Below are positions 1 to 23,800 of a stretch of 51,301 nt of DNA, piece by piece. Every line of letters starts with the position of its first letter. Within the stretch, counting starts at the first letter, position 1. Under the pieces are notes generated by a model, which saw nothing but the letters and a program-made list of their open reading frames with translations, did not search any database and was not told where the DNA came from. Source of the stretch: a virus; the IMG/VR virus record IMGVR_UViG_3300007523_000017, positions 1 through 51,301 of that record; one strand, 5' to 3'. Made by a program: the position numbers and the translations under genes.

Positions 1-144
1 GCATGTCCGGCCAGCTTCGGCCCGGCCGGGGGCGCGTGGGACAATCCGGCATGCATCCTGCCCCCTTATTACAAGCCTGTACCGACCTCTTGGCGCTGGT
101 CCTGAAGTTCGACCATCCGGCTGGCACTGGACGCGGTGCTGGTC
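1..144. other. GC-rich leader, no supported gene
   Basis: This stretch is much richer in G and C than anything else in the window, with runs such as CGGCCCGGCCGGGGGC near position 20. CC and TC dinucleotides are common here, then vanish abruptly after about 144. An open frame from 3 to 203 exists but has no ribosome-binding site and no recognisable protein features, so it is not called. The segment could be host or plasmid DNA at an integration or assembly junction, or a separate phage module. Confidence 0.6.
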
Positions 145-411
145 AGGTGTGGTGCAGTGGATGGCATGTGATGGTACAAGTGGAAAGGAACATTGCATTA
201 TAACACATAATGCAGGCGGTGGTTTGTTTGTTACACAATACAGATTACAGGGGATACAGCACGAAATAAAGCAAAGACGTACATGGGCAGCAGGCATTGA
301 TTGATGACAGCACTACGGGGCTAAAAACGGGCAAAAAACACGGCTGTTGGGGATGATGCAGAGTTGGTTTGGCTGACTAAGAGAAAAGATGTAACAAAGC
401 TAAAATAAAGC

Positions 412-439
412 TTGCAGCATGTGCATATGCTGTTATAAT
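412..439 (+). promoter_or_regulatory. sigma70-type promoter with spacer inverted repeat
   Basis: TTGCAG (412-417) and TATAAT (434-439) are separated by 16 bases. CAGCAT (415-420) and ATGCTG (427-432) form an inverted repeat filling the spacer, a natural place for a repressor. The start codon at 468 follows with AAGG at 457-460. The promoter at 767-794 has the same plan with different arm sequences. Confidence 0.65.
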
Positions 440-467
440 AAACACATAGCAACAAAAAGGACACACA

Positions 468-749
468 ATGTATTTAACACAAATTGTTAAAGTTGCAAAT
501 TCCGCAGCAATTGCAGCAGAGTTTGTGGAGAACAATTACGAGGGCTTGCTGGAGCGGTACATGCTGGAGGACGGCGAGAACAGCGCGGTGCAAGGTGAGA
601 TAGTGGGCACAGAAAAAGTGGACACTGTGATGTGGATGGCGGACTGCGGTGAGATGCGCTGCTACACGCACAACGACGTGCAGGTGTTGCGTGATTGCAA
701 CGGCAAGCTGTGGATAACTGAGGAGCAAGAAAGCGAATTGTTTTTGTAA
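468..749 (+). CDS. Small acidic protein of unknown function
   Basis: A 93-residue acidic soluble protein with no recognised domain, signal peptide or membrane segment. The start is set by AAGG seven bases upstream and a promoter ending at 439. Its + strand contains a single TC and a single CC, both in one TTCCG, although GA and GG are frequent, as its many Glu, Asp and Gly codons demand. It shares promoter design with the next gene, so the two probably form a module regulated by one factor. I do not recognise the family. Confidence 0.65.
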   Translation: MYLTQIVKVANSAAIAAEFVENNYEGLLERYMLEDGENSAVQGEIVGTEKVDTVMWMADCGEMRCYTHNDVQVLRDCNGKLWITEEQESELFL

Positions 750-766
750 CAAAGTGGAAATAACGC

Positions 767-794
767 TTGCGCTAACTGCGCAAGCTGTTATAAT
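767..794 (+). promoter_or_regulatory. sigma70-type promoter with perfect 8-bp inverted repeat
   Basis: TTGCGC (767-772), a 16-base spacer, then TATAAT (789-794). GCTTGCGC (765-772) and GCGCAAGC (778-785) are perfect inverted arms around a 5-base loop, overlapping the -35 box and spacer. It lies between the stop at 749 and the start at 826. The likely use is an operator, or a hairpin if read through from upstream. Confidence 0.65.
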
Positions 795-825
795 AAATGC
801 TTAGCAACAAACAAAGTAAAGCAAC

Positions 826-1437
826 ATGCACACTTTAACACTTACACAAGCGCAAAACGCAATCTCGTTGCGCGCAAACAACAACACGCTAAACGTTGCA
901 ATGCTGCAACAAATGTTGCAAAATGTTAGCGTAACATTTGCAAGCATTGTATACTGTACAAATGTGCAGCTTGCCGCTGCGCATAAAGCGCAAAATATTA
1001 TTAAAGTAACCCGCGCAAATGTGTTGCTTGCAAGCAACATTAGCGCACAAGCGCAATTGTATGCACGTGCAGTACGTAAAAGCGCAGCAAAGTATGCGCA
1101 AAACGATGTTGTTGCAATACAACAATTTGAAGCACAAAGTAATTACTTTGCGCATACTGCAATGCATTGCATTGTTGCGCACAAACAACATGCAGACAAA
1201 CTGTATTTGTATGCAATATACAACACTGCAAGCAGCGTATACATGCACAATAATGCTGTTGTAAGCAAGCAACACGTTGCACAATATTGTACTGCAAGCG
1301 CAGCAGCTAAGCTGTTGCAAGCAAACAACACTGTACACAATGTTACACATAATATAACGCATAACGTGCAAGTACGTACTATTGCGCTTAATAACATAGT
1401 TAGCATACGTGCGCGTAAGCAAATGCTTAGCGTGTAA
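826..1437 (+). CDS. 203-residue protein lacking Gly, Pro and Trp
   Basis: The predicted protein has no Gly, Pro or Trp, one Glu and two Asp. It is rich in Ala, Asn, Gln, His, Val and Thr and is strongly basic. This follows from the DNA, in which GA, GG, TC and CC are almost absent, so GAN, GGN, CCN, TCN and TGG codons cannot occur. TGA stops are also suppressed, so long open frames appear in several other frames (for example 889-1473 on the - strand). Openness alone is therefore weak evidence for coding. In favour are a good promoter (767-794), an ATG at sensible distance, and a terminator-like hairpin 14 bases after the stop. Ribosome-binding site is weak. Function unknown. Confidence 0.5.
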   Translation: MHTLTLTQAQNAISLRANNNTLNVAMLQQMLQNVSVTFASIVYCTNVQLAAAHKAQNIIKVTRANVLLASNISAQAQLYARAVRKSAAKYAQNDVVAIQQFEAQSNYFAHTAMHCIVAHKQHADKLYLYAIYNTASSVYMHNNAVVSKQHVAQYCTASAAAKLLQANNTVHNVTHNITHNVQVRTIALNNIVSIRARKQMLSV

Positions 1438-1450
1438 CACAAAATGTAGC

Positions 1451-1474
1451 AGTGTGCAAGTAGTATTGCACACT
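1451..1474 (+). terminator. 9-bp perfect hairpin after the 826-1437 gene
   Basis: AGTGTGCAA (1451-1459) and TTGCACACT (1466-1474) pair perfectly around GTAGTA. It sits just after the stop at 1437 and directly before the direct repeats. There is no clean U-run, only GTTACAAATTTT, so it may be a terminator or part of the repeat locus. Confidence 0.45.
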
Positions 1475-1539
1475 GTTACAAATTTTACACAAAGTTACAA
1501 ATTTTACACAAAGTTACAAATTTTACACAAAGTTACAAA
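1475..1539. repeat. Three 19-bp direct repeats (iteron-like)
   Basis: The unit GTTACAAATTTTACACAAA occurs at 1475-1493, 1494-1512 and 1513-1531 without mismatch, followed by a partial fourth copy to about 1539. Unit length, perfect identity and head-to-tail order resemble iterons of plasmid origins or partition sites. There are no spacers, so this is not CRISPR. The array ends exactly where the normal base composition resumes. Confidence 0.8.
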
Positions 1540-1540
1540 A

Positions 1541-1763
1541 TCCCAGTCAGCAGAACCTGTGTAAAAGATGTAACAATTGTAACAGCGTTGGCAAGCCGCT
1601 GCACCAAAATTTCCCAAAGTTGTATAGGATCTCTCCTCGAGGAAATTTCTACCTTAATCATACAGGACCGAATTCTGCCAAACCAAATCTCGGAATGTCC
1701 TTCCTGTATCACATTCTCTCCGCGCCACTTTACAACAAGGTTCTGGTTACGCTATAATAACTT
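1541..1763 (+). promoter_or_regulatory. Leader of the small-gene array with a possible promoter
   Basis: No convincing gene. A -10 TATAAT at 1753-1758 lies 17-18 bases after TTTACA/TTACAA (1729-1735), a plausible sigma70 promoter for the array. The predicted start of transcription then falls at or just past ATG 1764, so either the first gene is leaderless or it starts at ATG 1785. GAATGT and ACATTC near 1694-1716 can form a 6-bp hairpin. CCTCGAGG at about 1637 is a short palindrome. Confidence 0.4.
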
Positions 1764-1994
1764 ATGGATCTGATATCACCTTTTATGAAACACCCGGGCG
1801 ATAGCCCTGTATTTAAACACAGTGTGGAAATCCCATGGCCCCAGATGGCTGGACAGGATATGGATGAGTATATAAATGATTTAGAAGCGAATGGACTTAA
1901 AGTACATATCTTTTCAACATCCGCATTTTGCAGATTCTGGTTCCAGCATAAGGAGGATGCTGTAGCGTTCACACTAAAGTATAAGTGTGTATAA
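1764..1994 (+). CDS. Array paralogue 1
   Basis: First of 23 tandem small genes. The last residues, KEDAVAFTLKYKCV, carry the family signature: acidic pair, A-V-A-F, then L-K-aromatic. An aromatic strand (CRFWF) precedes it, as in most members. The N-terminal 55 residues match no other copy by eye. Start uncertain: ATG 1764 would be nearly leaderless from the TATAAT at 1753, and ATG 1785 (residue 8) is an alternative. Function unknown. Confidence 0.75.
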   Translation: MDLISPFMKHPGDSPVFKHSVEIPWPQMAGQDMDEYINDLEANGLKVHIFSTSAFCRFWFQHKEDAVAFTLKYKCV

Positions 1995-1998
1995 TCAT

Positions 1999-2193
1999 AT
2001 GAAAGAATTCAATTGCCGTGTGTTAATGGATAGATACTACTATACAGTGGAAGTCATGGTGTACATAAGGCTGTTGTTGGGGGTCGATCATAGTTATGTA
2101 AATATATTTGACACCGGCGGCTACAAGGAGATATGGTTTGCACATGAGGAGGATGCTGTAGCATTCAAACTAAAATTCAAATGTGAAACATGA
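1999..2193 (+). CDS. Array paralogue 2
   Basis: 64 residues ending HEEDAVAFKLKFKCET, a good signature with a charged tail in place of the usual final Gly. I chose ATG 1999; an in-frame GTG at 1987 would overlap paralogue 1. The stop shares ATGA with the next start at 2190, so translation is probably coupled. The middle is unusually rich in Val and Tyr. Function unknown. Confidence 0.75.
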   Translation: MKEFNCRVLMDRYYYTVEVMVYIRLLLGVDHSYVNIFDTGGYKEIWFAHEEDAVAFKLKFKCET

Positions 2194-2492
2194 TATATAT
2201 TGAAACACTCCCAGACCTTGGCGACGCATTGTATCCATACAAGTGTGATTATTGGAGAGCCTTTAACTACTTGGATAAGAATAGTTTAGCAGTAAGCGAT
2301 GTTGACACCATGTTTAGGGGTATGGTTAAATGGTTGGAAGATAATATATCATCGAATGGAATAAACTATAGATGGTCTAATATTACTATTATATTCTTCA
2401 CTGCAAAAGACCGTGTAAGCTATCCAAGATTTGTAGCCTTTGCGGATGAGACTGACTTGTTAGCCTTCAAGCTTGTGTGGGGTATAGTATGA
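2190..2492 (+). CDS. Array paralogue 3 (longest copy)
   Basis: 100 residues, about 30 more than typical. The extra length is N-terminal (Tyr/Trp-rich, residues 1-40). The core has the family's W-L-E-D-N helix (about 48-52) and ends DETDLLAFKLVWGIV, with Trp replacing the usual Phe. It overlaps both neighbours by four bases (ATGA at 2190 and 2489). Function unknown. Confidence 0.8.
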   Translation: MIYIETLPDLGDALYPYKCDYWRAFNYLDKNSLAVSDVDTMFRGMVKWLEDNISSNGINYRWSNITIIFFTAKDRVSYPRFVAFADETDLLAFKLVWGIV

Positions 2493-2704
2493 TTGATGAT
2501 TTTGACTACAGGCTGACACCGAGGTCGGGTTCTAAAGTTAGATATAGTGAGTTTATCGATTGGGTAATCAATATACGACCAGAATATATTTTTGATAAAG
2601 ATGCGTATGAATTAGACAAGAATGACATTACTGTATACATCCTTACAGCGATTAACTTGCAAGGTGAAGACTTGGTTGCATTTAAACTAAAGTTTGGAAT
2701 ATGA
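2489..2704 (+). CDS. Array paralogue 4
   Basis: 71 residues starting at ATG 2489 (ATGA overlap); an upstream GTG at 2477 is less likely. It has E-F-I-D-W-V in the helix position and ends GEDLVAFKLKFGI. Its 3' end contains TTTAAACTAAAGTTTGGA, the 18-mer found unchanged in paralogues 5, 7 and 8. Confidence 0.8.
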   Translation: MIDDFDYRLTPRSGSKVRYSEFIDWVINIRPEYIFDKDAYELDKNDITVYILTAINLQGEDLVAFKLKFGI

Positions 2705-2904
2705 ACCATACAACACAAGAATGTCCATATCAGATTAGTACCACAAATGCTAAGTTCTATAATACAGAAATAGCAAATTACTTAATCGCAATATATAAGA
2801 TAGGTGTAGAATTAACAGTTGTAGACATCGAGTTTAGGTCCAGACTAATATGTTTTAAACATTCGGAAGATTTGCTTATATTTAAACTAAAGTTTGGATT
2901 ATGA
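2701..2904 (+). CDS. Array paralogue 5
   Basis: 67 residues, ending SEDLLIFKLKFGL. The central Trp seen in most copies is missing; Y-L-I-A-I-Y occupies the helix. ATGA overlaps on both sides. It shares the 18-base junction sequence with paralogues 4, 7 and 8. Function unknown. Confidence 0.78.
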   Translation: MNHTTQECPYQISTTNAKFYNTEIANYLIAIYKIGVELTVVDIEFRSRLICFKHSEDLLIFKLKFGL

Positions 2905-3140
2905 AGTTACTGTTATTTAATATTAAGGCATTGGAAATTCTTACAGGTACTAAAGTAAGAATGGCATTGGAAAATTGTGGCATAGAATATAAATGGGCAA
3001 TGGATCCAACCAACAGCATTATTAATGCTGTTGGAATAAAGATAGATATATCCCATGAAGCTACTGTTAAGAAAATATTTAAGGATTGCTTTGTAGACGA
3101 CGAAGCTGCGGTTGCATTTAAACTACGGTGTAAGATATGA
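2901..3140 (+). CDS. Array paralogue 6
   Basis: 79 residues, ending DDEAAVAFKLRCKI, with Cys-Lys in place of Phe-Gly. Residues 30-35 (I-E-Y-K-W-A) give the family's central aromatic strand. Coupled to both neighbours by ATGA. At 3009-3031, AACAGCATTATTAATGCTGTT is a near-perfect inverted repeat within the gene. Confidence 0.78.
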   Translation: MKLLLFNIKALEILTGTKVRMALENCGIEYKWAMDPTNSIINAVGIKIDISHEATVKKIFKDCFVDDEAAVAFKLRCKI

Positions 3141-3331
3141 CTGCAATATATAAAAAGGTAATATTTATAGATGTTCCGCAAACTATACTGGAGACTAACG
3201 TGGCAAAGTTTCTTAATACTTTGCCAAACTTACCAGATGGTAAGAGACCATATGGATATTGGAATATTGATCAGATTGCGTTTGTATTGGATGAGGATCA
3301 GATTGTATTTAAACTAAAGTTTGGATTATGA
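3137..3331 (+). CDS. Array paralogue 7
   Basis: 64 residues, ending DEDQIVFKLKFGL. F-L-N-T-L-P followed by Y-G-Y-W gives the helix and aromatic strand. The stop/start ATGA at 3328 is preceded by the identical 18-base junction. Function unknown. Confidence 0.78.
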   Translation: MTAIYKKVIFIDVPQTILETNVAKFLNTLPNLPDGKRPYGYWNIDQIAFVLDEDQIVFKLKFGL

Positions 3332-3519
3332 TTGTACGATGTATATCTACTGCAGACGGACCGGCGTGGGGCACGGTAGAGCAACGCGAGGAATGCATAG
3401 TCTGGTTAGAAACTAATGTCGGACTGTATGACACGGATTGGAAATGGAGTAAGTTTGGATATGTTCTTATATATGATGATGAAGCAGCTTGTGCGTTTAA
3501 ACTAAAGTTTGGAATATGA
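3328..3519 (+). CDS. Array paralogue 8
   Basis: 63 residues with the clearest family pattern: an N-terminal strand, C-I-V-W-L-E-T-N-V helix (about 27-35), D-W-K-W-S strand, then DDEAACAFKLKFGI. Overlaps both neighbours by ATGA. A useful query for building a profile of the family. Confidence 0.82.
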   Translation: MIVRCISTADGPAWGTVEQREECIVWLETNVGLYDTDWKWSKFGYVLIYDDEAACAFKLKFGI

Positions 3520-3725
3520 TTAAGGTGAAGGTTAATGCTGATTTCTGGGTTATAGAAAACTCGTATTATCATTACGTAACAGAGTGGTTGACAGAACATA
3601 TTCCGGATTCTAAAGATTGGAATTATGTTAACTGTTACTCTTACATGGCAAGCCCCACTGATGGCTATTTTAACTTTAGACATGTCGAAGATGCAGTAGC
3701 TTTTAAATTAAGGTTTAAAATATGA
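3516..3725 (+). CDS. Array paralogue 9
   Basis: 69 residues. V-T-E-W-L-T-E-H-I and D-W-N-Y-V mark helix and strand; the end is VEDAVAFKLRFKI. ATGA overlaps at both ends. Function unknown. Confidence 0.8.
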   Translation: MIKVKVNADFWVIENSYYHYVTEWLTEHIPDSKDWNYVNCYSYMASPTDGYFNFRHVEDAVAFKLRFKI

Positions 3726-3949
3726 AGGCATTATTGTTTGATTGTGATGTGCCGATTATTTTGACAATTAGCAGTTGGCTTATGCAGCACAATATTAAAT
3801 TCGAATGGATTGTGTATATTATGGGCAGCCGACATTCCCTGGCATTTATATCGATGCAGAAAATGAACATAAGAACAGAATATGCATATGGTAAATTTCT
3901 ATGCGATGAAGATGCAGTTATTAAAGTATTGACACTTAAGGTAATATAA
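3722..3949 (+). CDS. Array paralogue 10 (diverged C-terminus)
   Basis: 75 residues. Helix I-S-S-W-L-M-Q-H-N and strand F-E-W-I are intact, but the tail reads CDEDAVIKVLTLKVI, losing the A-F-K-L-K-F core. It may be drifting in function or decaying. Stop and next start overlap as TAATG at 3949, unlike the ATGA used elsewhere. Confidence 0.72.
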   Translation: MKALLFDCDVPIILTISSWLMQHNIKFEWIVYIMGSRHSLAFISMQKMNIRTEYAYGKFLCDEDAVIKVLTLKVI

Positions 3950-4143
3950 TGTATAGAATAACATTTGACATATTTACATTTGGAAAGTTCGGCGAAGTAG
4001 TCGATTGGTGTATGCGTAACATTGGCTACCGTGACAATGGATGGACAACCTTCTTAGACGAGGATGGGCATTTTGTTATTGAGATAGAGGATGAGTATGC
4101 TACACTGTTTAAATTAAAATTTAATGCGAATGATTTTAAATAA
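3949..4143 (+). CDS. Array paralogue 11
   Basis: 64 residues. V-V-D-W-C-M-R-N-I helix, D-N-G-W-T strand, and a late DEYATLFKLKFNANDFK tail with seven extra residues after the signature. It is followed by the first real gap in the array (4144-4230). Confidence 0.78.
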   Translation: MYRITFDIFTFGKFGEVVDWCMRNIGYRDNGWTTFLDEDGHFVIEIEDEYATLFKLKFNANDFK

Positions 4144-4230
4144 TTAACAGCGTAGATATTGGTAGTAGAAAAATGCGCTTTACGGCGGCTTTGCAGCTTA
4201 ACGAGGGCCAGGAGAAAAAGTTCCAACATT

Positions 4231-4422
4231 ATGATTATACTAGATAAAAAATTTGTTACAATGAGAGATATAAGTGCATGGAATGAATGGAGATCTAAAT
4301 TTTCCCCAATAGCTTATTCAAAGATGCGATATCACCAAGACCGTCTTAGTGGGAGATTGTGGGGACTGGAGTTTGATACTTTAGAGGACGAAGTTGCATT
4401 TAAATTAAAGTTTGGAATATGA
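4231..4422 (+). CDS. Array paralogue 12
   Basis: 63 residues from ATG 4231, ending LEDEVAFKLKFGI. The frame stays open upstream to an ATG at 4159, but the extra 24 residues (Arg/Cys-rich) do not look like this family. GGAG at 4211-4214 is rather far (16 bases) from ATG 4231, so the start is not certain. ATGA overlap with paralogue 13. Confidence 0.72.
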   Translation: MIILDKKFVTMRDISAWNEWRSKFSPIAYSKMRYHQDRLSGRLWGLEFDTLEDEVAFKLKFGI

Positions 4423-4628
4423 TTAAAAATATATACAAAATTCCATTTCCCAAAACAGTGTTTTATGAACAGTTTGCAGAGTGGGCAATCAGAATTGGTA
4501 GAAGAAAAGATTATGTGGATGAAGAAACTTATGCATTGTGCAATAAGTCCATTGGCGTATGGCGTGTATGTGAAGCTGCCATATATGATGAAGATTCTGT
4601 TGCATTCAGGATAAAATTTGGTGTATGA
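4419..4628 (+). CDS. Array paralogue 13
   Basis: 69 residues, ending YDEDSVAFRIKFGV, a conservative variant of the signature. F-A-E-W-A-I-R-I in the helix position. ATGA overlaps on both sides. Function unknown. Confidence 0.78.
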   Translation: MIKNIYKIPFPKTVFYEQFAEWAIRIGRRKDYVDEETYALCNKSIGVWRVCEAAIYDEDSVAFRIKFGV

Positions 4629-4864
4629 TCGAACTTCATAAAGCATATATATTATCGACGGAGATCCCGGGGCTAAGTAAATGGGTCACAGATTACATGG
4701 AACGTTATCCCGGATCTATAGAATTGGAAATAGTTAAACCGACATATTCTACAATAACTTTTAAAGACACAAAGCAAGAATTTTGTACTAAAAGTGGATA
4801 TGCTCTTATGACTGTCATTGACGAGGCAGCACTAATTGTTCTCAAATTAAAGTTTGGATTATGA
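4625..4864 (+). CDS. Array paralogue 14
   Basis: 79 residues. L-S-K-W-V-T-D-Y-M helix; a longer, Lys-rich middle; end IDEAALIVLKLKFGL, where Val-Leu replaces Phe before the K-L-K-F. ATGA overlaps on both sides. Confidence 0.76.
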   Translation: MIELHKAYILSTEIPGLSKWVTDYMERYPGSIELEIVKPTYSTITFKDTKQEFCTKSGYALMTVIDEAALIVLKLKFGL

Positions 4865-5055
4865 CAAGAGTAATAATTAGTAATCCAAATTGGACAAGAG
4901 ACACAGACATAAATGAATTGATAGAATGGCTCTCGTCATTAAAGCATGGTCGTCTTGGTTGGTCGTATTGGATTGACAAAAACGAAGATCGGTACATAGA
5001 TTTTAAGGATCCAGAGGATGCAATAGCGTTTAAATTAAAGTACATTACAGCTTAG
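4861..5055 (+). CDS. Array paralogue 15
   Basis: 64 residues. N-E-L-I-E-W-L-S-S-L helix, L-G-W-S-Y-W strand, end PEDAIAFKLKYITA. The stop at 5053-5055 does not overlap the next start; an 11-base gap follows. Confidence 0.8.
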   Translation: MTRVIISNPNWTRDTDINELIEWLSSLKHGRLGWSYWIDKNEDRYIDFKDPEDAIAFKLKYITA

Positions 5056-5066
5056 CCTGCGGCAAA

Positions 5067-5270
5067 ATGTTTACAATTGATGTATCAAACTATCTCCCGA
5101 TATCTGACGCCAGAGGTCGCTGGGCACAAGAACGAGTGTATAAGCAATGGTGCATGGACAACTGTCCGAATAGTTGGAACTATTACGGGGAATATAAGAA
5201 ATGGCCGTATATATTCCGCTTCAGAGATGAGCAAGATTTACTTGCGTTTAAATTGAAGTTTATATTATGA
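5067..5270 (+). CDS. Array paralogue 16
   Basis: 67 residues. Y-K-Q-W-C-M-D-N-C and S-W-N-Y-Y match paralogues 9 and 17 in pattern; end DEQDLLAFKLKFIL. ATGA overlap with paralogue 17. Function unknown. Confidence 0.8.
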   Translation: MFTIDVSNYLPISDARGRWAQERVYKQWCMDNCPNSWNYYGEYKKWPYIFRFRDEQDLLAFKLKFIL

Positions 5271-5470
5271 ATAATAGAGCGTTCAGAGTATGTATGTCTG
5301 ATATTCAATTTGAGAATTTAGACGTAGATGTATTCATCAAGTGGGCTAATGATGTTATTAACAGCAATTGGACTTATTATAATGCATATAATTCTAACTG
5401 TCGCTATTTTAGTTTTTCCACCGAAGAGGATGAGTTGGCGTTTAGAATAAAGTTTGGACTATGCATGTAA
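5267..5470 (+). CDS. Array paralogue 17
   Basis: 67 residues. V-F-I-K-W-A-N-D-V helix, N-W-T-Y-Y strand, end EEDELAFRIKFGLCM. It overlaps the next gene by ten bases (ATGCATGTAA), the longest junction of this kind in the tight part of the array. Confidence 0.8.
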   Translation: MNNRAFRVCMSDIQFENLDVDVFIKWANDVINSNWTYYNAYNSNCRYFSFSTEEDELAFRIKFGLCM

Positions 5471-5664
5471 TTAAATTAAACCACTTTATATCTGACTCAC
5501 TATATCGTATACTAGACGAGGAGATCTGGTTGTATCATAATGTAGGCATGCCAGGCGAAGAGACTTGGAAGATAGTTTATAGCAGCTTATTGATAGACAG
5601 ATCTGTCTACGCGCACATTGCTGATCCAGAGACAGCAACTGTTTTTAAATTGAAATTTGGATGA
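5461..5664 (+). CDS. Array paralogue 18
   Basis: 67 residues, ending PETATVFKLKFG. The E-E-I-W-L-Y-H-N-V helix is recognisable, with E-T-W-K-I after it. It closes the first 18-gene run; an unrelated gene follows before the array resumes. Confidence 0.76.
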   Translation: MHVIKLNHFISDSLYRILDEEIWLYHNVGMPGEETWKIVYSSLLIDRSVYAHIADPETATVFKLKFG

Positions 5665-5665
5665 T

Positions 5666-6010
5666 ATGGACGATATAGATAAAAATTATGCTAAGCTGAA
5701 AAACATTCCGGAATTTTGTCTTGACAGGGTTTATTCTCTTACGGAAGGCGAGAGAACAATTCAGAGACAATACATGTTTGAATTTGAGAATGGATATGGT
5801 GCAAGTGTTGTGGAGTTTTTTGATAAGTCATTTAGTGGAGGGCATGCGTTTGAAGTAGCAATGCTGAAAATATCAGCCGATGGGTATACTATTGTGTATG
5901 ATAAAGACATAATTCCAGATGTATATCGAGGCAATGCTATATGCATAAGTGACAAATTAACAGAAATAGAGGAATACAATGGACAAGAATCTGATTCGCT
6001 TTTACCCTAA
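5666..6010 (+). CDS. Unrelated small protein inside the array
   Basis: 114 residues from ATG 5666 (an in-frame TTG lies at 5657). It has no C-terminal signature and is not an array member. F-E-N-G-Y-G-A-S-V-V (about residues 41-50) recalls a small conserved phage protein of unknown role that carries a similar N-G-Y-G-A-S-V motif. The end overlaps paralogue 19 by 32 bases. Possibly an ancestral neighbour around which the array expanded, or a later insertion. Confidence 0.75.
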   Translation: MDDIDKNYAKLKNIPEFCLDRVYSLTEGERTIQRQYMFEFENGYGASVVEFFDKSFSGGHAFEVAMLKISADGYTIVYDKDIIPDVYRGNAICISDKLTEIEEYNGQESDSLLP

Positions 6011-6233
6011 ACACAAAGACTTATCGGAGGAAGATCATGACAAGCAAGTTATGGTTTATCGCGATTGGTTGGATACACACGGAAGATATGGTAAGCTGTA
6101 TATGATGAATATTGGGAGAATAGAAGGCGATTCCTTCTTGACTGAGGCAGAAGTTTACCGTTCTATCATCAATGGTGTAAATATCTACGACGGCGAAATC
6201 GCCATATTGTTCAAGCTTAAATTTGAAGTATGA
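5979..6233 (+). CDS. Array paralogue 19
   Basis: 84 residues starting inside the preceding gene. Y-R-D-W-L-D-T-H-G helix; end DGEIAILFKLKFEV. ATGA overlap with paralogue 20. The 32-base overlap suggests it arrived by recombination into the end of the upstream gene. Confidence 0.75.
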   Translation: MDKNLIRFYPKHKDLSEEDHDKQVMVYRDWLDTHGRYGKLYMMNIGRIEGDSFLTEAEVYRSIINGVNIYDGEIAILFKLKFEV

Positions 6234-6463
6234 CTTGCATAGTCAGAGTATATTCAGGTTGGGCGCGTCGGGCCAAGTATTCCGAATTAAATGATTGGAT
6301 AGGAGATTCAAGTAACACTGCCGAGTGGGATCCTAACTCCGGTTTTACTATCGTAGATGGTGAAAAATTTCAGTCAGTTATACTCCTGGAGAGTGAGGAA
6401 GATATGCTTGTCTGCTTATTAAAATTTTCAGAGATAGCCGTACGTGGTACCTATAATATATAA
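6230..6463 (+). CDS. Array paralogue 20 (degenerate tail)
   Basis: 77 residues. E-L-N-D-W-I-G-D-S helix is family-like, but the end is SEEDMLVCLLKFS followed by an extra ten residues. The signature has lost its A-F-K core. It overlaps the GTG start of paralogue 21. Confidence 0.68.
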   Translation: MTCIVRVYSGWARRAKYSELNDWIGDSSNTAEWDPNSGFTIVDGEKFQSVILLESEEDMLVCLLKFSEIAVRGTYNI

Positions 6464-6695
6464 ATATTCCTATATTGTAATAAAACGGTATCAGGATTTT
6501 GGTGGTGAGCATCACATTAAATTGTATAGTAGCATTTCTAACTGGTGTGATGAAAATTGTAAAGCATCCGGCTGGCGATGGGACCGTGGACCGTGGGCAG
6601 AGATTCAGGAAGAAGATTGGGCTATACTGCCCATCCAGATATCATTCGACGATAGTGAAGATGCTATAGCGTTTAGGCTTGCATTTGGATTCTAA
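6444..6695 (+). CDS. Array paralogue 21 (GTG start)
   Basis: 83 residues from GTG 6444; there is no in-frame ATG before the family core, so the start is weakly supported. I-S-N-W-C-D-E-N-C and G-W-R-W-D are strong family features; end SEDAIAFRLAFGF. Confidence 0.68.
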   Translation: MVPIIYKYSYIVIKRYQDFGGEHHIKLYSSISNWCDENCKASGWRWDRGPWAEIQEEDWAILPIQISFDDSEDAIAFRLAFGF

Positions 6696-6701
6696 TATAT
6701 A

Positions 6702-6911
6702 ATGTGGCATGAAGTGATACTCAAACCTACCGTATCAGGTTATCCAGTAGAATGGGTACAGCGTCACCGTCGATATACCGAGTGTGTTAGATGGTGCGAG
6801 ATTAATATAAGTTCAGCAGGTGTTCTTTGGAAACGAGATGACATCTATCCAGGTATATTCTACTTTGCACAGTATGATGACGCAGTTGTCTTTAAATTAG
6901 TAAACGGATAA
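6702..6911 (+). CDS. Array paralogue 22
   Basis: 69 residues. C-V-R-W-C-E-I-N-I helix, V-L-W-K-R strand, end YDDAVVFKLVNG (truncated signature). Its stop codon lies inside the late-promoter motif at 6907-6914. Confidence 0.76.
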   Translation: MWHEVILKPTVSGYPVEWVQRHRRYTECVRWCEINISSAGVLWKRDDIYPGIFYFAQYDDAVVFKLVNG

Positions 6912-6929
6912 ATACTCCCAATTAGGGAG
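6907..6929 (+). promoter_or_regulatory. Late promoter plus RBS-masking hairpin
   Basis: GATAAATA (6907-6914) differs at one base from the T4 late promoter TATAAATA. CTCCC (6915-6919) can pair with GGGAG (6925-6929), which is the ribosome-binding site of ATG 6937. By T4 spacing (start six bases after the motif) transcription would begin at about 6920, in the loop, so late RNA lacks CTCCC while read-through RNA keeps it. This is the logic described for T4 gene e. Confidence 0.6.
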
Positions 6930-6936
6930 AACAATT

Positions 6937-7206
6937 ATGCCGTCTGTCAATCTAAAAAATATAGCGAATGATCTTAACACCGTCGATTCTTATTTACTTT
7001 TTAAATCGATTAGCAGTTGGTGTAATTCAAATGTAAAAAAGGAAAGATGGCAATTCGACTATGCTTCCGTTCTATGCGTCTATGGAGTTGATTTTCCTAG
7101 ACGCATTATTTTTTGGCACAGCATAGACTGTGTTGCATTCAAACTAAAGTTTGGAATAAATGATTCGATTGACATAAGTCCCGTAACACAATACAATAGT
7201 GTATAA
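6937..7206 (+). CDS. Array paralogue 23 (last; late promoter)
   Basis: 89 residues. I-S-S-W-C-N-S-N-V helix, R-W-Q-F-D strand, then IDCVAFKLKFGI plus 17 extra C-terminal residues. It alone has its own strong ribosome-binding site (GGGAG, seven bases before ATG) and a GATAAATA promoter, so it may be made late while the rest of the array is early. Confidence 0.8.
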   Translation: MPSVNLKNIANDLNTVDSYLLFKSISSWCNSNVKKERWQFDYASVLCVYGVDFPRRIIFWHSIDCVAFKLKFGINDSIDISPVTQYNSV

Positions 7207-7245
7207 TAAAAGGCTCATTGAAGTTCAAAAATTGTCTAATCACAA

Positions 7246-7273
7246 TTGACGAGAACCTTGAAGCAACTATAAC
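7246..7273 (+). promoter_or_regulatory. sigma70-type promoter
   Basis: TTGACG (7246-7251), 16 bases, TATAAC (7268-7273). AATTGT (7230-7235) and ACAATT (7242-7247) form an inverted repeat touching the -35 box. It serves the gene at 7286 and probably those to 7951. Confidence 0.55.
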
Positions 7274-7285
7274 GAAAGCAGAATA

Positions 7286-7468
7286 ATGTTAAATCGCGAA
7301 GACATAGAACGCATTGTAGAAAATTATATCAGAGATAATCTGGAAATCGAAGTTCGCAGCGGCGATTTTACAAATCCAAATTCCAGAACTATAACTGTAA
7401 CGGTAGGCGACAGGATAGTTTCCTCAGCAAACTTCGATATAGTTCAGCAAAGAGAATACGAGGGATAA
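7286..7468 (+). CDS. Small unknown protein
   Basis: 60 residues: a charged N-terminal helix (E-D-I-E-R-I-V-E-N-Y) followed by alternating strand-like stretches (T-I-T-V-T-V-G-D). Short soluble proteins of this kind are common in phages. The stop at 7468 is one base before the next start, giving a small operon with 7470 and 7727. Confidence 0.65.
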   Translation: MLNREDIERIVENYIRDNLEIEVRSGDFTNPNSRTITVTVGDRIVSSANFDIVQQREYEG

Positions 7469-7469
7469 G

Positions 7470-7679
7470 ATGTATATGCCGGGATGGGTTAGGACACTTG
7501 TTCTAATCATAACTGTGACAACAGGTATATCCGGGGTTATTTACGGATGTCTTTCTATAATGCCTGTTTATATACTGATAAGTATAGTATCTATTATATT
7601 CCTATGTGGGGTATGGTGCTATTTTATCATCGTGGATGATTCAATAGAAATGGGCATTAGCTATGGTAGAAAGTTTTAA
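7470..7679 (+). CDS. Small two-segment membrane protein
   Basis: 69 residues with two hydrophobic stretches (about 8-28 and 31-53) and a short polar tail. Probably inner-membrane, with both ends on the same side. Holin or superinfection-immunity roles are possible, but nothing specific is visible. Start one base after the previous stop. Confidence 0.65.
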   Translation: MYMPGWVRTLVLIITVTTGISGVIYGCLSIMPVYILISIVSIIFLCGVWCYFIIVDDSIEMGISYGRKF

Positions 7680-7726
7680 AGGATAAGAATGAGTGGAAAA
7701 AAGACTTGATTGTCAGGATTAAGAAA

Positions 7727-7951
7727 ATGCCCGAAGCTGAGTTGTCATCTTATTACAGGATAATCAAGACGATTAACACTGTTATTAATATATTTGGAAT
7801 TTCCCTATTCTTACTAATAATGTTCTTTACAAGTGCATTTGTGATTATAGTTGGAGCTATTCTGATTGCGCAGGCAGCAATGTCCGGAACTCACATAATC
7901 ATGTTAAAGAGACTCATACAGCAAGAATTAGTGAAGTTCGAAAGACGATAA
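7727..7951 (+). CDS. Small membrane protein, start unclear
   Basis: 74 residues from ATG 7727, with a long hydrophobic region (about residues 15-55), likely two membrane segments, and a basic tail. The frame is open back to TTG 7706. A better-placed ATG at 7689 (after GGATAAGA) is out of frame by one base, with six A residues between. One more A would give a product starting M-S-G-K-K-D-L-I-V-R. That points to a homopolymer error or a frameshift in nature. Confidence 0.6.
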   Translation: MPEAELSSYYRIIKTINTVINIFGISLFLLIMFFTSAFVIIVGAILIAQAAMSGTHIIMLKRLIQQELVKFERR

Positions 7952-7958
7952 ATAACGG

Positions 7959-8309
7959 ATGCAATATAATCCTATTTATACACCACAGAATACAGTGGCA
8001 CTTGATGCTAATGTCCAGGCGGTCGTCAATGCTATCAACACCAAGTCAATAATCCCATACGGTGATTATGGTGGACCGTCTGTTTATTATTTCCAAACAA
8101 TGAACAATGGCCTAGGAAACTTGGCATATACTATCTTCGATAAAGAAACAACATTGGGGTTGGCAAGCTTTATGGTTAGATATGGTGCTGCTGCAATAAT
8201 CCAACAAGTTCTCTTCCAGCCTTATCCGCGTAGCCAAATCGACTTGCAATTCCTGGTCTTGCCTAATATTCCAGTAGCAAGCTTTACTAATGGGACAGTT
8301 ATTCCTTGA
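7959..8309 (+). CDS. Unknown protein paired with the next gene
   Basis: 116 residues, with no signal peptide or obvious domain. Neutral, rich in Asn, Gln, Tyr and Pro, with an A-A-A-I-I-Q-Q helix; the character is that of a virion or secreted structural protein. Its stop (TGA 8307-8309) lies just before the next start, so the two are probably co-translated. Confidence 0.65.
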   Translation: MQYNPIYTPQNTVALDANVQAVVNAINTKSIIPYGDYGGPSVYYFQTMNNGLGNLAYTIFDKETTLGLASFMVRYGAAAIIQQVLFQPYPRSQIDLQFLVLPNIPVASFTNGTVIP

Positions 8310-8314
8310 CACAA

Positions 8315-8944
8315 ATGTTTGTTAGAAACGATACATCTGTAGCAGTGCTAACCTTCATTACGTTAGGTGCAACTTCGGGGTGTGTAAACGATGTTGCAAA
8401 TATAACTCTTAGCAGTGGTAAGATTACTAAACTCCATAATTTAATGGGGACATTTGTTGTTCCTGGCAATACTTCGATGGAGTTGGTTGCCCCGAAGGGT
8501 GATGGATTTAATGGTAACATTTCATTCAATACTCCGCCAATGAATTGCCCAACACCAAAATTTCCAGATGGTGTTAATCTTGCTGAATTTATTATTAATA
8601 ATGGATTTCAACAATACGGGCAAGAAACAGTTGATAACTCGTGTGTTGCTGGTGCAAATGCATTTATCGAATTTGAAATGAGCGCACTCGACTGGACAAG
8701 TAATGGTGGTTCTATACTCCGTGTTACAAAAATTACAAATGGCAAAAAATTAGATAACACAGGAAGAATTGGTGTATTCCCGTATGGTTGTGATAATTGT
8801 ACGTCCAGTGACAATCCGCCATCATGTGTTGGGCAACAATCACAATATGCAAATAAGATTCCAATCTGCAATGTTCAAAGGCCGGCCGGCAGCAATAAGG
8901 GAGGCACAGTAACCATTGCATTTAAAGGTTTTACTTATTATTGA
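8315..8944 (+). CDS. Possible thaumatin-fold protein
   Basis: 209 residues from ATG 8315 (an in-frame TTG at 8306 would overlap the previous stop). L-A-E-F-I-I-N (89-95) followed by E-T-V-D-N-S-C-V-A-G-A-N (104-115) recalls the thaumatin-family L-A-E-F-x-L-N ... D-V-S-L-V-D-G-F-N. An acidic G-D-G-F-N-G precedes it and several Cys lie in the C-terminal third. The formal thaumatin signature is absent and there is no signal peptide, so the assignment is remote. A carbohydrate-binding virion role would fit. Confidence 0.5.
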   Translation: MFVRNDTSVAVLTFITLGATSGCVNDVANITLSSGKITKLHNLMGTFVVPGNTSMELVAPKGDGFNGNISFNTPPMNCPTPKFPDGVNLAEFIINNGFQQYGQETVDNSCVAGANAFIEFEMSALDWTSNGGSILRVTKITNGKKLDNTGRIGVFPYGCDNCTSSDNPPSCVGQQSQYANKIPICNVQRPAGSNKGGTVTIAFKGFTYY

Positions 8945-8969
8945 CAGTAAACGTGTACCATGCTATAAT
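8941..8969 (+). promoter_or_regulatory. Consensus sigma70 promoter
   Basis: TTGACA (8941-8946), 17-base spacer, TATAAT (8964-8969): a full match at optimal spacing, overlapping the upstream stop codon. It drives the exonuclease cassette 8995-10197. Confidence 0.85.
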
Positions 8970-8994
8970 AAAATATAAATTACAGAAAGAATAT

Positions 8995-9507
8995 ATGGAA
9001 CAAAATGTAATGGTGGACGTCGAATCAGACGGCCCCTGCCCTGGAATGCACAGCATGATTTGCTTCGGAGCTGTCATCGTAGAGAAAGGTTTTCAACGAA
9101 CCTTCTACGCCGAACTGAAGCCTATTTCCGAAATCTATATTCCTGAAGCACTTGCTATTAGCGGCTTTGACCGTGAAAAGTGTATGAAGTTTCCTGACCC
9201 GCGTGACGCGATGCAGAACTTCGAAGCATGGTTACAAAAAGAAATCCCAGGTAAACGGCCCATTTTTTGGTCAGACAACAATGGATACGACTTTGCTTTC
9301 ATGAATTACTACTTCTGGCAACAGCTTGGTCGTAATCCGTTTGGATGGTCATCGGCTAATATGGGGTCATTCTACAAAGGTCAACAACAGAATTTGTATG
9401 CCACATTCAAGCATTTGCGTGAAACAAGGCACACCCATAATCCAGTCGACGATGCAAGGGGTAATGCAGAAGCATTACTGAAAATGTTTAATGACGTAAA
9501 GAAGTGA
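8995..9507 (+). CDS. DEDDh 3'-5' exonuclease
   Basis: 170 residues. Exo I motif V-D-V-E (D8, E10), Exo II around N-G-Y-D-F (D99) and Exo III H-N-P-V-D-D (H148, D153) give the full DEDDh set of RNase T/DnaQ-type exonucleases, which remove nucleotides from 3' ends with two metal ions. Start chosen at ATG 8995 because the promoter's predicted start lies near 8976; the frame extends further upstream but that would be untranscribed. The end overlaps the next gene by four bases (GTGA). Likely early nucleic-acid processing. Substrate (DNA or RNA) cannot be told. Confidence 0.85.
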   Translation: MEQNVMVDVESDGPCPGMHSMICFGAVIVEKGFQRTFYAELKPISEIYIPEALAISGFDREKCMKFPDPRDAMQNFEAWLQKEIPGKRPIFWSDNNGYDFAFMNYYFWQQLGRNPFGWSSANMGSFYKGQQQNLYATFKHLRETRHTHNPVDDARGNAEALLKMFNDVKK

Positions 9508-9945: not shown

Positions 9946-10197
9946 ATGGAAAACGATTTATATAGAGATGAAGAGTTTACTTTAGAGAATTTAAACGAGT
10001 TACATTGTTTTGAGGCATTAGATAGGTGCCATATGTTGCAAACGCATCTAGAAAATGCGTTATTTAATCATATGGGAGTTTCGGACAACGAAGCCAGACT
10101 GCTAAATCAAGTAAGCATATTATTGGCAGATGTATACCAATCTCTGGGACAACGGGCATTTAAGGAGCATGGTGACCCAGAGGCACCGGGTTTCTAG
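9946..10197 (+). CDS. Small acidic helical protein
   Basis: 83 residues, mostly predicted helix, acidic. H-C-F-E-A-L-D-R-C-H near residues 20-29 and L-A-D-V-Y-Q-S-L-G-Q near 61-70 are a pattern seen in small proteins of T4-like phages. Last gene of the exonuclease cassette; its end overlaps the convergent dehydrogenase gene by 38 bases. Function unknown. Confidence 0.7.
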   Translation: MENDLYRDEEFTLENLNELHCFEALDRCHMLQTHLENALFNHMGVSDNEARLLNQVSILLADVYQSLGQRAFKEHGDPEAPGF

Positions 10198-11416
10198 TAT
10201 TCCCGTAGTGAATAACTTTACAATCAGGAATTGGATTTTGTTTACGCCATATATCGAAGATAATCGAACCAGCAACTGGGCTGATTTCCTGTTTAGCAAC
10301 AATATTTCTCATCGGTGAATCACAGTATGTAATCTCTGAATCATGCATAAGAACATACATGCACGCTTGATTTAATATTTCGGATGGAGGAAGGCTCATT
10401 GTGTACTGGTCAAGGAAGTACACAGTTTCACCAAGCTGTTGAATATAGTGTTCTAGTAATATGCTGCCTGACCCTTCCAAATAATTGACTCCAGGCTTGT
10501 ATGCCTTACCAACTATAATAATCGGTAGGTCGCCTGCTTCAATAACTATTCTCTTAGCCATATTTTCTGTTTGCACCTCTCGTGCATGCATGATTGCACC
10601 GAACAGGTCGTAGTTCAGATTTAGATCTTCTGCCATCCACCGCAATGCAATATTGTCACGTGGGTGGCAAGCTCCGCCATCCGGGCCTCCGGCAATCATG
10701 TACTTTGGTCCCATGATACGTTGAGTAGAACGAGCAAGGGCGCCCGTAACTACATCGACATCTATGTTGCCCATCTTCTCTGCTACGTCTTGAATCATAT
10801 TCACTAGGCCGATTTTAGCCGAGATAAATGTGTTGTAGAAAATCTTAATAGCTTCAGCTTCGTCCCACGTTCCGACTTCATAACGCGGATTATTATTCAT
10901 GATAGTTTTGTAGAATGCAACTAGTTGCTCCGCATCTCCTGTCATGGATCCATCCTCGGTTCCTATAATAACCATCTCCGGATTTAGCATGTCCCATGCT
11001 ACACTGCCCATAGCTATTAGGTACGGATTATACACGAATTTTGCGTTATTTATGAGGCTAACGAACTCTCTGCGAGTCGTGCCGGGCAAGACTGTGCTGA
11101 TGAGCACAATTAGCTGATTTTTTGTGACGTGCTTATTTACTTCTAGTAGGATGCTTTTAACTGTATCGTAATTAAAGTCTTTAGGGGATAGTTTCGATGT
11201 TGGCAACTCCCCGCCATATTCTTCAACGTGTGGCGTAGGTACGGCAATGAAGATAATATCCTTATGCTCTAATACATCCTTAATAGTGTCTCTCATCACA
11301 ACAAGTTTTGGGTTCCTGGGATGAATATCATATCCCTCGACATGGTGTCCCATTGATGCAATAGCTTCGGCACAGTCCTGGCCCAGTTTGCCCATTCCTA
11401 TAAATCCAATACTCAT
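10160..11416 (-). CDS. UDP-glucose/GDP-mannose dehydrogenase family
   Basis: 418 residues. N-terminal Rossmann G-F-I-G-M-G-K-L-G (4-12), central helix with K191 and N195, catalytic Cys250 in G-G-A-C-H-P-R-D-N, and a C-terminal substrate domain (from about 285). The family oxidises a nucleotide sugar twice, with NAD+, to the uronic acid. Last gene of the glycan operon; it starts at the end of the methyltransferase gene (TAATG). It probably supplies an acidic sugar to the neighbouring transferases. Which sugar is oxidised cannot be told. Confidence 0.88.
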   Translation of the reverse strand: MSIGFIGMGKLGQDCAEAIASMGHHVEGYDIHPRNPKLVVMRDTIKDVLEHKDIIFIAVPTPHVEEYGGELPTSKLSPKDFNYDTVKSILLEVNKHVTKNQLIVLISTVLPGTTRREFVSLINNAKFVYNPYLIAMGSVAWDMLNPEMVIIGTEDGSMTGDAEQLVAFYKTIMNNNPRYEVGTWDEAEAIKIFYNTFISAKIGLVNMIQDVAEKMGNIDVDVVTGALARSTQRIMGPKYMIAGGPDGGACHPRDNIALRWMAEDLNLNYDLFGAIMHAREVQTENMAKRIVIEAGDLPIIIVGKAYKPGVNYLEGSGSILLEHYIQQLGETVYFLDQYTMSLPPSEILNQACMYVLMHDSEITYCDSPMRNIVAKQEISPVAGSIIFDIWRKQNPIPDCKVIHYGNTRNPVPLGHHAP

Positions 11417-20861: not shown

Positions 20862-23800
20862 TCAGGGAATCCCTGTGCCTTGTTCATCTTTCAAGAATTC
20901 AGATTCCTGTGTTAACGCATACCACAGACCACCTAATGGTGTCGATATAATATTAGAATACTCGTCGACTGTTATAATTGACAACGGATCTGGATTGGAA
21001 TTCAATGCATTCCATACATCCACATAGCTGCCGGCAGGCATATAGTTGAATTTCTCGACCCACACTGGGTTTGGCACTAATACCATCGGATCGGCCAAAC
21101 TTGGGATCATTGCTAGATGTTCAGTTGGTGCCGTGTCCATTGTCCCCCTGTATATTAATCTTAATTCCCATGTATTAGGTAATATTAATTGTTTGTTCCT
21201 GTATTCTATTCTCTCGCCATTAATCCAGATAACACCGGCTTCTACGCCCGGATTAGGAAGTATATCAGTGCTTAATGGATGTGTCACTGGATCTACATAA
21301 ACTGTAATCACATCAATATTATAGGTATCTGCTGTTGGCGCAGGTAAGTCAAATAGTAGTGTTCCGGAAAATACTTCGGCATTCCTGTAGAAACTAGATC
21401 CGTATAATACGCTAGTGTTGTCTCTGAAACTAATTGTGTAGTCGAGTAAAATAGGTACTAACGGTGTATCCCACGATACTTGATCGGTGCCACCTTCGGC
21501 AATAAGAGCAGCCGCTATTTCCGGCTGATTCATTCCATCCCATGTATCTCCCCATCCCACATATGGTGCAACAGTTGCAGGCGCCCACGGCGGACCAACT
21601 ATTAAGCTTACATCATTTGCAACTAACTTAGTATCAGCAATGACTACGAGGTCATCGATTCCGACTACATTAGCAGTTTCGTTTCTCGGAGCATATTTCG
21701 TGAATGATAATAACTGGCCGCCGTCAATCCACACAAATGCAACTGGATCTGGTGTCCCGGGGTCATTGTAGAAATAAACAGTATACGTCATGTCATCATT
21801 ATACTCGACATAGTAATCTTGTCCGTAATATAATATTCCGGCAGAAGTCTGTATTGCAATAATATTATTCGGTGTCACAAAGGTTTGTGGATTATCCAAA
21901 TTCACACTATTAAAGTCGAATGTATATGGGAATAATGCTGATAATCCAATCTTAGAAGAATCGAAGAATGTTAATGGAACTTGTATTGTCGACTCGTCGA
22001 ATCCTGGCCAATTGGATATACCTGGATTGTAGAATGGTAACACAGCATTTCGAGACACGAATTGATTTGGAATTTCTGCCATATTGACCGGAGCATCCCA
22101 TTCTGTATCCCACGCAAATGTATCCCATCCGCCCTGCGGAGTAATTATATTACCATCGACGCCAATTTCTTCTCCGGCAAAATCTGGGCCGAACTTTAAA
22201 GTAATTTGATGCTTATAGCTATCTGATGCTGTACCGATTGCAATGTCACTTGTAGTATGTGTACTTGTATAATCTCGAATCTGTGTATGGTATGGTTTAG
22301 AATCCTTGATGTAACTAATGACATCGTCGATATTATCAGGAGCATATATACTGCTCTGTACTAACGGAACATTATTTTCTTTTATGTATATGTATGACGA
22401 TTTAAATACCCAATCTGGGTTTTTCTGCTCGCTCATTACATAGTTAAGCATGGCAAAATATAACTCGTTTTGGTCAACTATATTTTCATCTACCATAACT
22501 TGTGTTCTAAATGCATTTAGCAATTCTCTCAATTCTGTGGATAGCCCATATTTGTTTACTGCTGTGTAAACAGTATCTAACAATTTAATTGCGCTATTCT
22601 GAATTGCAACTTGGTCTAAACTTAGAGCAGGTACATTTGGATTTACTTTAACTACTGCATATAAAACATATCTGCCATCTACGGTTCCGTTTGTTACTTG
22701 AACAATTTGCCCAACATATAATTCGCCAGATAACATTGCAGTATTAGCCAATGCAAGTGTAGAGTACACAACTGTTGGTACAACATTTTCATATCCTACT
22801 TTGTACCAGTTTGTATATTCCCAATAAACTGATGTTGACACATTTACATTCCAGCTAGGAGTATCATCCCTTACTGGAATATATTGTAATAATGCATTTG
22901 CAGCTTGGACGAATACTTTCCTGGCAGGAAGCAAATTAACAAACATTCCCTGACGTGGCCTATATTCGATGCCGTACTTCTGACCAAGTGCTAACATAGG
23001 GTCAGGCACAGGCAATATTACGCCGTATTCTGGCGAAGTAAGTGTGGTTGCATCATCCCATGGTGCAACGTCCCATCCGTATATGTCCCATGGCAGATAG
23101 TTAGCAACAATTATGCTATTTGTAAATTCGGCTGATGCAGACAATACCTTTGTGTATCCGCATAAGCTGTCAACCATCTTATTCCAGAACTGGGCAGTAA
23201 TAAGTGATGCAGGATCTCCTTCGCGGAACAGTGCCCACTGAGTATGCTCTTGATCGTCGCGTTCCGATATCCTGTATTCAATTTGTACATTGTCTCCTTT
23301 ATACGCAAGAATATCTTGTGCATTATAAAACATGTATGAATTGTTTGTTGCAGTTTGTTGGATAGGCGCAAAGAATACAAACCCCTGGCTCTTAGGACTT
23401 TGTAACAGTCTTGCTACATCAGTTGCAGCCATTGTCCTGTTTATAACATTTGGCTTATTAGTCGAACCTAATACCCAGAAGTAATAGTTAATCTCTGTTA
23501 TGTTAGTAAATCTGTTTGATACTGTTATTACAACATATGATTCAGTGCTGCGTGGCACGCCGCTGCCTGTATATTCGGCAGGAGGGACGGGACTACTAAC
23601 CCACTCATATATCTCTATAGCAGATCCCGGGAACAATTGTGCCCAATGATCTCTTCTATAAACTAAGTTATCTAATTCAGTTTCACTTCCGTCTAAAGCA
23701 ATAGGCTGTTCGTAATATGTATAGCGTGTGGTCGATGTATCCCACCACAGTTGTCCCACCTGCCTCTTACCGAAAGTTATATTCTCGTCATATAATCTTG

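Follow-up and report, generated by a model that had tools for sequence, protein, structure and literature searches.

A tandem array of small genes in a phage genome raises the question of why its gene junctions are alike as DNA while its gene bodies are not, and whether this likeness allows whole genes to be added, deleted or swapped, as a preliminary description had proposed. The sequence analysed, hereafter called the window, is the 51,301-base IMG/VR virus record IMGVR_UViG_3300007523_000017. It is a fragment of a large contractile-tailed phage, with PHROG matches for a baseplate wedge, a hub/lysozyme, a late sigma factor and SbcCD-like genes; the wedge is ~46% identical to that of PA5oct-type phages, and an exonuclease-like protein encoded downstream of the array is ~50% identical to proteins of metagenomic phages of 462 and 735 kb. 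The carrier of the array is an uncultured giant phage. On the minus strand, a UDP-glucose dehydrogenase-like gene (10160-11416; PHROG 9148, E 1e-93) lies beside the array and one reading frame of 3,545 codons (20862-31499) adjoins the baseplate genes.

The array itself is real, but it extends well beyond positions 2489-4864, where it had been placed. The array and its surroundings comprise the following features.

1764-7206, plus strand: array of about 23 small paralogous genes (63-100 aa), with translations, alignment and HMM matches for all 23
5666-6010, plus strand: non-family gene within the array, with a 39% identical homologue at another position in the array of the relative G006
6937-7206, plus strand: last array gene, whose orthologues are also last in the arrays of the relatives G001, G004 and G006
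7959-8309, plus strand: conserved 116-aa gene downstream of the array, 64-84% identical in five relatives and used as an anchor for finding them
8968-9507, plus strand: conserved exonuclease-like gene with an uncertain start codon, the other downstream anchor, 78-88% identical in four relatives

The array genes lie head to tail, interrupted by the one non-family gene, and their proteins share a C-terminal motif (EDAxAFKLKFG), which is their best-conserved part, and a tryptophan in helix 1. Their bodies are strongly diverged, with a mean column identity of 18% in the protein alignment. Gene starts and motif positions follow a rule-based assignment, and the start of some members may be wrong. 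From a 50-member alignment, AlphaFold2 predicted a beta-alpha-beta-beta-alpha fold (pLDDT 84). A scan of 50 family members gave no Pfam match at 0.01 and a single PHROG match, of one member at E=0.01, and no family was assigned. Foldseek found no PDB match to the predicted fold at E<=0.001; in comparisons with ferredoxin-like, ACT and RRM folds, the best VIA-align Z was 5.7, to an ACT domain, which is within the range of common arrangements, and the structure searches yielded no usable PDB relative. Among predicted structures, the best matches are to phage proteins that are uncharacterised, one of them from Atu_ph07. Our guess, from general knowledge, is that the many fast-evolving copies interact with the host. 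Another lead is the overlap of the array genes described below, which may point to complex subunits, by analogy with overlapping gene pairs that frequently encode such subunits (PMC10666635).

At least nine further contigs of uncultured large phages in IMG/VR carry arrays of this family or pieces of them: G001 (82 kb), G002 (369 kb), G004 (210 kb), G006 (91 kb), G011 (123 kb), L041 (15 kb), L044 (127 kb), L046 (385 kb) and L048 (70 kb); L047 (363 kb) contains weaker family genes. The relatives' arrays sit upstream of the two conserved anchor genes; the closest exonuclease found is 90% identical, and the homologue in the Sinorhizobium phage Phosso is annotated as an exonuclease. Family matches are also dispersed across the G002, L046 and L047 records and are present in cultured phages (42 in Phosso, 6 in Atu_ph07 and 4 in PA5oct); those of Phosso (record L068) are scattered over its genome, in which no exact match to the junction pattern was found. 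The contig L008 (30 kb) belongs to a near relative of the window, with an identical SbcC-like protein, and contains no array-family member; no near relative covering the window's array was found. A broader ATGA junction pattern matched 22 stretches, the newly matched contigs being devoid of family members, a search with five window array proteins fused into one query yielded no close relatives from genome or viral contig collections, and the phage collection contained no DNA similar to the window.

Several elements lie upstream of the arrays. A 203-aa gene of strongly biased composition (rich in N, A and Q) is located at 826-1437 of the window, and one homologue, 68% identical, lies ahead of the array of G011, while another, 45% identical, is found in reverse orientation close to that of G001. 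A tandem 19-nt repeat, TTACACAAAGTTACAAATT, is situated just upstream of the array leader of the window (1466-1539). In five relatives, one to four copies of CTNTATAGGNCC lie upstream of the array (L039 3123-3193; L042 5060-5103; L043 6526-6537; L045 4778-4789; L048 4889-5016) and nowhere else among the 88 loci examined; its counterpart in the window is only the degenerate TGTATAGGATC, near 1621-1632. This element could be a common promoter or leader element of the arrays. An Rfam scan of window positions 1-9500 gave no match.

The junctions of the window share both a sequence and a geometry. An 18-mer, TTTAAACTAAAGTTTGGA, had been described at the 3′ ends of genes 4, 5, 7 and 8, and it occurs there exactly in all four (2681-2698, 2881-2898, 3308-3325 and 3496-3513). 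When up to three mismatches are allowed, it has 10 sites in the window, 9 of them near 3′ ends of array genes, against 0.13 expected from shuffled sequences, none of which reached 10. The near-identity attributed to the other paralogues therefore holds for five near copies, but the remaining ends are more diverged, and a short identical sequence at every boundary, as had been supposed, does not exist. The ATGA overlap follows the 18-mer, not directly as first described but after two further bases (AT or TT). The four-base overlap is used, as had been counted, at thirteen of the 22 junctions, and one further junction overlaps at -1. The thirteen overlaps start at 2190, 2489, 2701, 2901, 3137, 3328, 3516 and 3722, which are eight in succession, and at 4419, 4625, 4861, 5267 and 6230. 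The longest identity between junctions in the window is 26 nt, shared by junctions 7/8 and 5/6. Representative junctions are as follows.

2190-2193, plus strand: junction of genes 2/3, ATGA overlap, the first of the eight in succession
2681-2704, plus strand: junction of genes 4/5, exact 18-mer, then ATA with the ATGA overlap at 2701-2704
2881-2904, plus strand: junction of genes 5/6, exact 18-mer, ATGA overlap at 2901-2904
3308-3331, plus strand: junction of genes 7/8, exact 18-mer, ATGA overlap at 3328-3331
3496-3519, plus strand: junction of genes 8/9, exact 18-mer, ATGA overlap at 3516-3519
4399-4422, plus strand: junction of genes 12/13, one mismatch (TTA leucine), ATGA overlap at 4419-4422
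4625-4628, plus strand: junction of genes 13/14, ATGA overlap
4841-4864, plus strand: junction of genes 14/15, three mismatches, ATGA overlap at 4861-4864
5267-5270, plus strand: junction of genes 16/17, ATGA overlap
6230-6233, plus strand: junction of genes 19/20, ATGA overlap

The FKLKFG helix and the start of the next gene might make the DNA alike by amino-acid constraint only. When the proteins were held fixed and codons were redrawn from each genome's array bodies, the window junctions, which encode the best-conserved part of the proteins, still had a mean identity of 0.586; the observed identity was 0.654 (p=0.002). Junction identity also exceeded this null in G001 and G011, and did not exceed it in G006, G002 and L046. 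BLAST comparison between phages gave 103 short matches that terminate at gene 3′ ends, compared with a mean of 18.5 and a maximum of 25 after codon resampling with fixed proteins, and the other short matches were unchanged by resampling (11 vs. 12). The comparison of synonymous sites in junctions and bodies that the preliminary description had called for thus indicates conservation of junctions beyond amino-acid constraint. Codon choice is, moreover, position-specific and dependent on junction geometry. Amino-acid constraint as the sole cause is refuted by the between-phage matches. The surplus of synonymous codon matches falls largely within the final ten codons, in comparisons between genomes as well, and is greatest at codon positions -6, -4, -2 and -1, the last of which provides no independent evidence because the overlap forces the final codon to end in A. 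Of the 103 matches, 75 persisted when codons were shuffled within each column and genome; hence most of the excess identity is a column-wise, position-specific codon preference, and the remainder is linkage between columns. This preference is explained better by an embedded translation start than by selection for shuffling.

In the standard junction geometry, two residues follow the motif and the ATGA overlap is present. The second lysine of the motif is encoded by AAG rather than AAA in a ratio of 41:5 in standard junctions, 21:13 in other geometries and 190:193 in bodies, and in standard junctions this AAG occupies -11 to -9 of the next ATG, namely the Shine-Dalgarno register, where non-array genes of the phage often have AGGAG-like sequences. 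Third-position GC is 76% at this lysine codon, 20% at the other five junction codons and 37% in bodies, and the sequence ahead of standard array starts is AAACTAAAGTTTGGANT. A purine codon in this register is thus kept by synonymous choice, and the idea that a junction encodes the tail of one protein together with the start context of the next is borne out by the conserved motif and the AAG bias. Computed anti-Shine-Dalgarno pairing exceeds that of resampled tails overall (p=0.01), in the window (p=0.02) and in G001 (p=0.02); the gain is borderline in G002 (p=0.05) and absent in G006 and G011. Reduced mRNA structure at array starts found no support (p=0.2). From the sequence, we infer that the junction AAG is a weak embedded ribosome-binding site.

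Other features of the tails bear on exchange. The leucine of the motif in the window is encoded by CTA in genes 1, 2 and 4-8, by TTA in genes 9, 11, 12, 14 and 15, by TTG in genes 16 and 18, and by CTT in genes 19 and 21. Synonymous tail codons are clustered along the array (lag-1 test, p=0.013 in the window and p=0.0005 in G011); body controls, which have lower power, were mostly flat, one reaching p=0.034 (window, lag 3). G006 and L046 exhibit neither the junction excess nor the clustering. In G011, the bodies of genes 13-17 are mostly unrelated (11-33% amino-acid identity), while their 33-nt tails are 91-97% identical, and junctions 9/10 and 10/11 share a 55-nt exact repeat between diverged bodies. 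Tandem duplication followed by fast divergence of the bodies, in which neighbours would be old duplicates that share junctions, has some basis: certain neighbours are tandem duplicates (G011 2/3 and 9-12), and dN/dS in G001/G004 is 0.14-0.61 for array genes vs. 0.06-0.08 for two flanking genes. However, synonymous sites of the G011 bodies 9/10 and 10/11 are also far diverged (dS 1.4-1.95) whereas their junction codons hardly differ (p=0.02 each; the corresponding contrast for 9/11 is not significant), and the nearly identical tails of genes 13-17, with their mostly unrelated bodies, speak against old duplication. As a general explanation, it is improbable.

Footprints of exchange with one end at a junction occur in relatives. 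G001 and G004 share two homologous blocks, one formed by G001 gene 5 (= G004 gene 3) from the start overlap to the stop, and the other by G001 gene 9 (= G004 gene 4) together with 25 nt of the tail before it; G001 carries three extra genes between these orthologues, which are adjacent in G004. In gene 5, 75 of the first 76 nt from the junction are identical, the rest is 78% identical and the genes to the left are unrelated; the change point has a likelihood ratio of 22 and was picked after seeing the data. Gene 5 shows greater synonymous-codon similarity than the flanking genes (p=0.0004) and the other array orthologues (p=0.015). The three-gene difference is compatible with crossing-over inside a 12-nt junction core common to both phages, and is indistinguishable from other deletions or insertions followed by mutation. 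In L048, a miniature 28-codon gene (6276-6362) still has its ATGA start along with the conserved tail, and it matches the terminal part of G001 gene 7. A longer gene in L043 (7702-8196) and L048 (6363-6836) has an extra N-terminal part fused to the array domain. Between these two phages its synonymous codons differ less than those of the genes on either side (p=0.0001), which suggests more recent exchange. The breakpoints, namely the start of the one 76-nt tract and the ends of the homologous blocks, are those of the G001/G004 pair and have no counterpart for the window, in whose own lineage no breakpoint was caught. As many tests were made with no common correction, p values of 0.01-0.03 would not all survive one; the AAG bias, the 103-match test, the G001/G004 75/76 tract and the G011 clustering would.

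A translational constraint without homologous recombination also deserves consideration: a coupled start would be under selection, and of the products of illegitimate recombination only whole-gene events would survive. The AAG/GGA bias with its dependence on geometry, and the column-wise nature of most of the excess, are consistent with such a constraint, and gene-boundary exchange without homology is an accepted phage mechanism (PMC3029335). On the other hand, the CTA/TTA blocks are neutral for the start site and yet clustered, and recent exchange is required for both the 55-nt repeat and the 75/76 tract. We regard this alternative as possible but doubtful.

Shared orthologues are mostly collinear among relatives (six in G001 and G004), the exceptions being two genes swapped between G001 and L048, one gene displaced in G011 and the non-family gene that lies elsewhere in G006. 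Comparison with relatives, which had been proposed as a check for changes in copy number and order, thus revealed whole-gene differences and blocks ending at junctions, while order was largely kept: whole genes are gained and lost between arrays, and turnover is mainly of this kind. What had been named as refuting the preliminary description, junction likeness due wholly to amino-acid constraint together with conserved gene order, is thus contradicted on both points, on the second by this gain and loss.

Taken together, it is probable that the junction is constrained by protein and translation and is then exploited by recombination. The junction encodes a conserved helix (DAxAFKLKFG) at the C-terminus of one small protein and overlaps the next start codon as ATGA, and synonymous bias in an otherwise A/T-ending stretch places AAG/AGG at -11 to -9 of the next ATG, putatively for coupled translation. 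Because these two constraints would keep 20-35 nt alike at many places, DNA homology recurs at the junctions and nowhere else in the array. Recombination among copies and from phage to phage, whether by unequal crossing-over, gene conversion or inter-phage exchange, would then tend to break at junctions, so that whole genes are gained, lost or replaced with frame and coupling intact. Junction recombination as the cause of turnover in the window is what we infer. Selection for intact genes would by itself place surviving breakpoints at junctions, which counts against the favoured explanation. Unequal crossing-over, the route originally envisaged, agrees with the junction-touching footprints in relatives, but as a specific mechanism it is unproven, both for this reason and because the 26-nt identity of the window falls short of the ~30 bp quoted as minimum homology for RecA and Red (PMC2327257); the window also contains no near-identical tandem copies, no close relative covers its array, and shared genes largely keep their order. 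Shuffling is more likely a by-product than the "design" once suggested.

Short conserved boundary sequences have been proposed as mediators of phage mosaicism (PMC3029335). The array junctions likewise offer a short common sequence between different genes on which general recombination could act, in four exact and five near copies and in common between phages at non-orthologous genes; they differ in being protein-coding, in overlapping the next start and in recurring many times among paralogues. The PeSL of T4-type phages is described as an intergenic cassette of an early promoter and a stem-loop (PMC4503421). On that description, both systems place a repeated functional sequence that supplies shuffling homology between small genes of large myoviruses, whereas the function of the array junction is translational and protein-coding; the junctions are not PeSLs, because thirteen of them in the window overlap by 4 nt and leave no intergenic DNA. 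The Start-Associated Sequence (SAS) of Cluster K mycobacteriophages, 13-bp GGGATAGGAGCCC, precedes the starts of unrelated genes (PMC3203893). It too is a short repeat at many small-gene starts with a proposed role in translation initiation, but in the array the repeat forms the last part of the preceding paralogue's reading frame, and standard array starts are preceded by a sequence other than the SAS consensus. Coupling by termination-reinitiation at ATGA overlaps is established in bacteria and archaea (PMC6728339, PMC10666635). The same overlap is found here (13 of 22 junctions at -4 and one at -1); unlike in those pairs, eight overlaps follow in succession among paralogues with one junction sequence, and coupling is putative.

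More tentatively, giant phages may possess a dedicated cassette array with rapid turnover, where a single coding junction would serve as protein helix, ribosome-binding site and homology arm, and genes of a large unannotated small-protein family would be swapped between phages as plug-in units with frame and coupling unbroken. The array provides a concrete, testable case of how phages may swap small genes cleanly, in which a protein tail and a start site, both bound to stay alike in any case, would supply the homology for recombination. It also brings to light a large small-protein family outside Pfam and PHROG families, of which some giant phage genomes contain ~40 matches each, among them that of the cultured phage Phosso, which is open to experiment.
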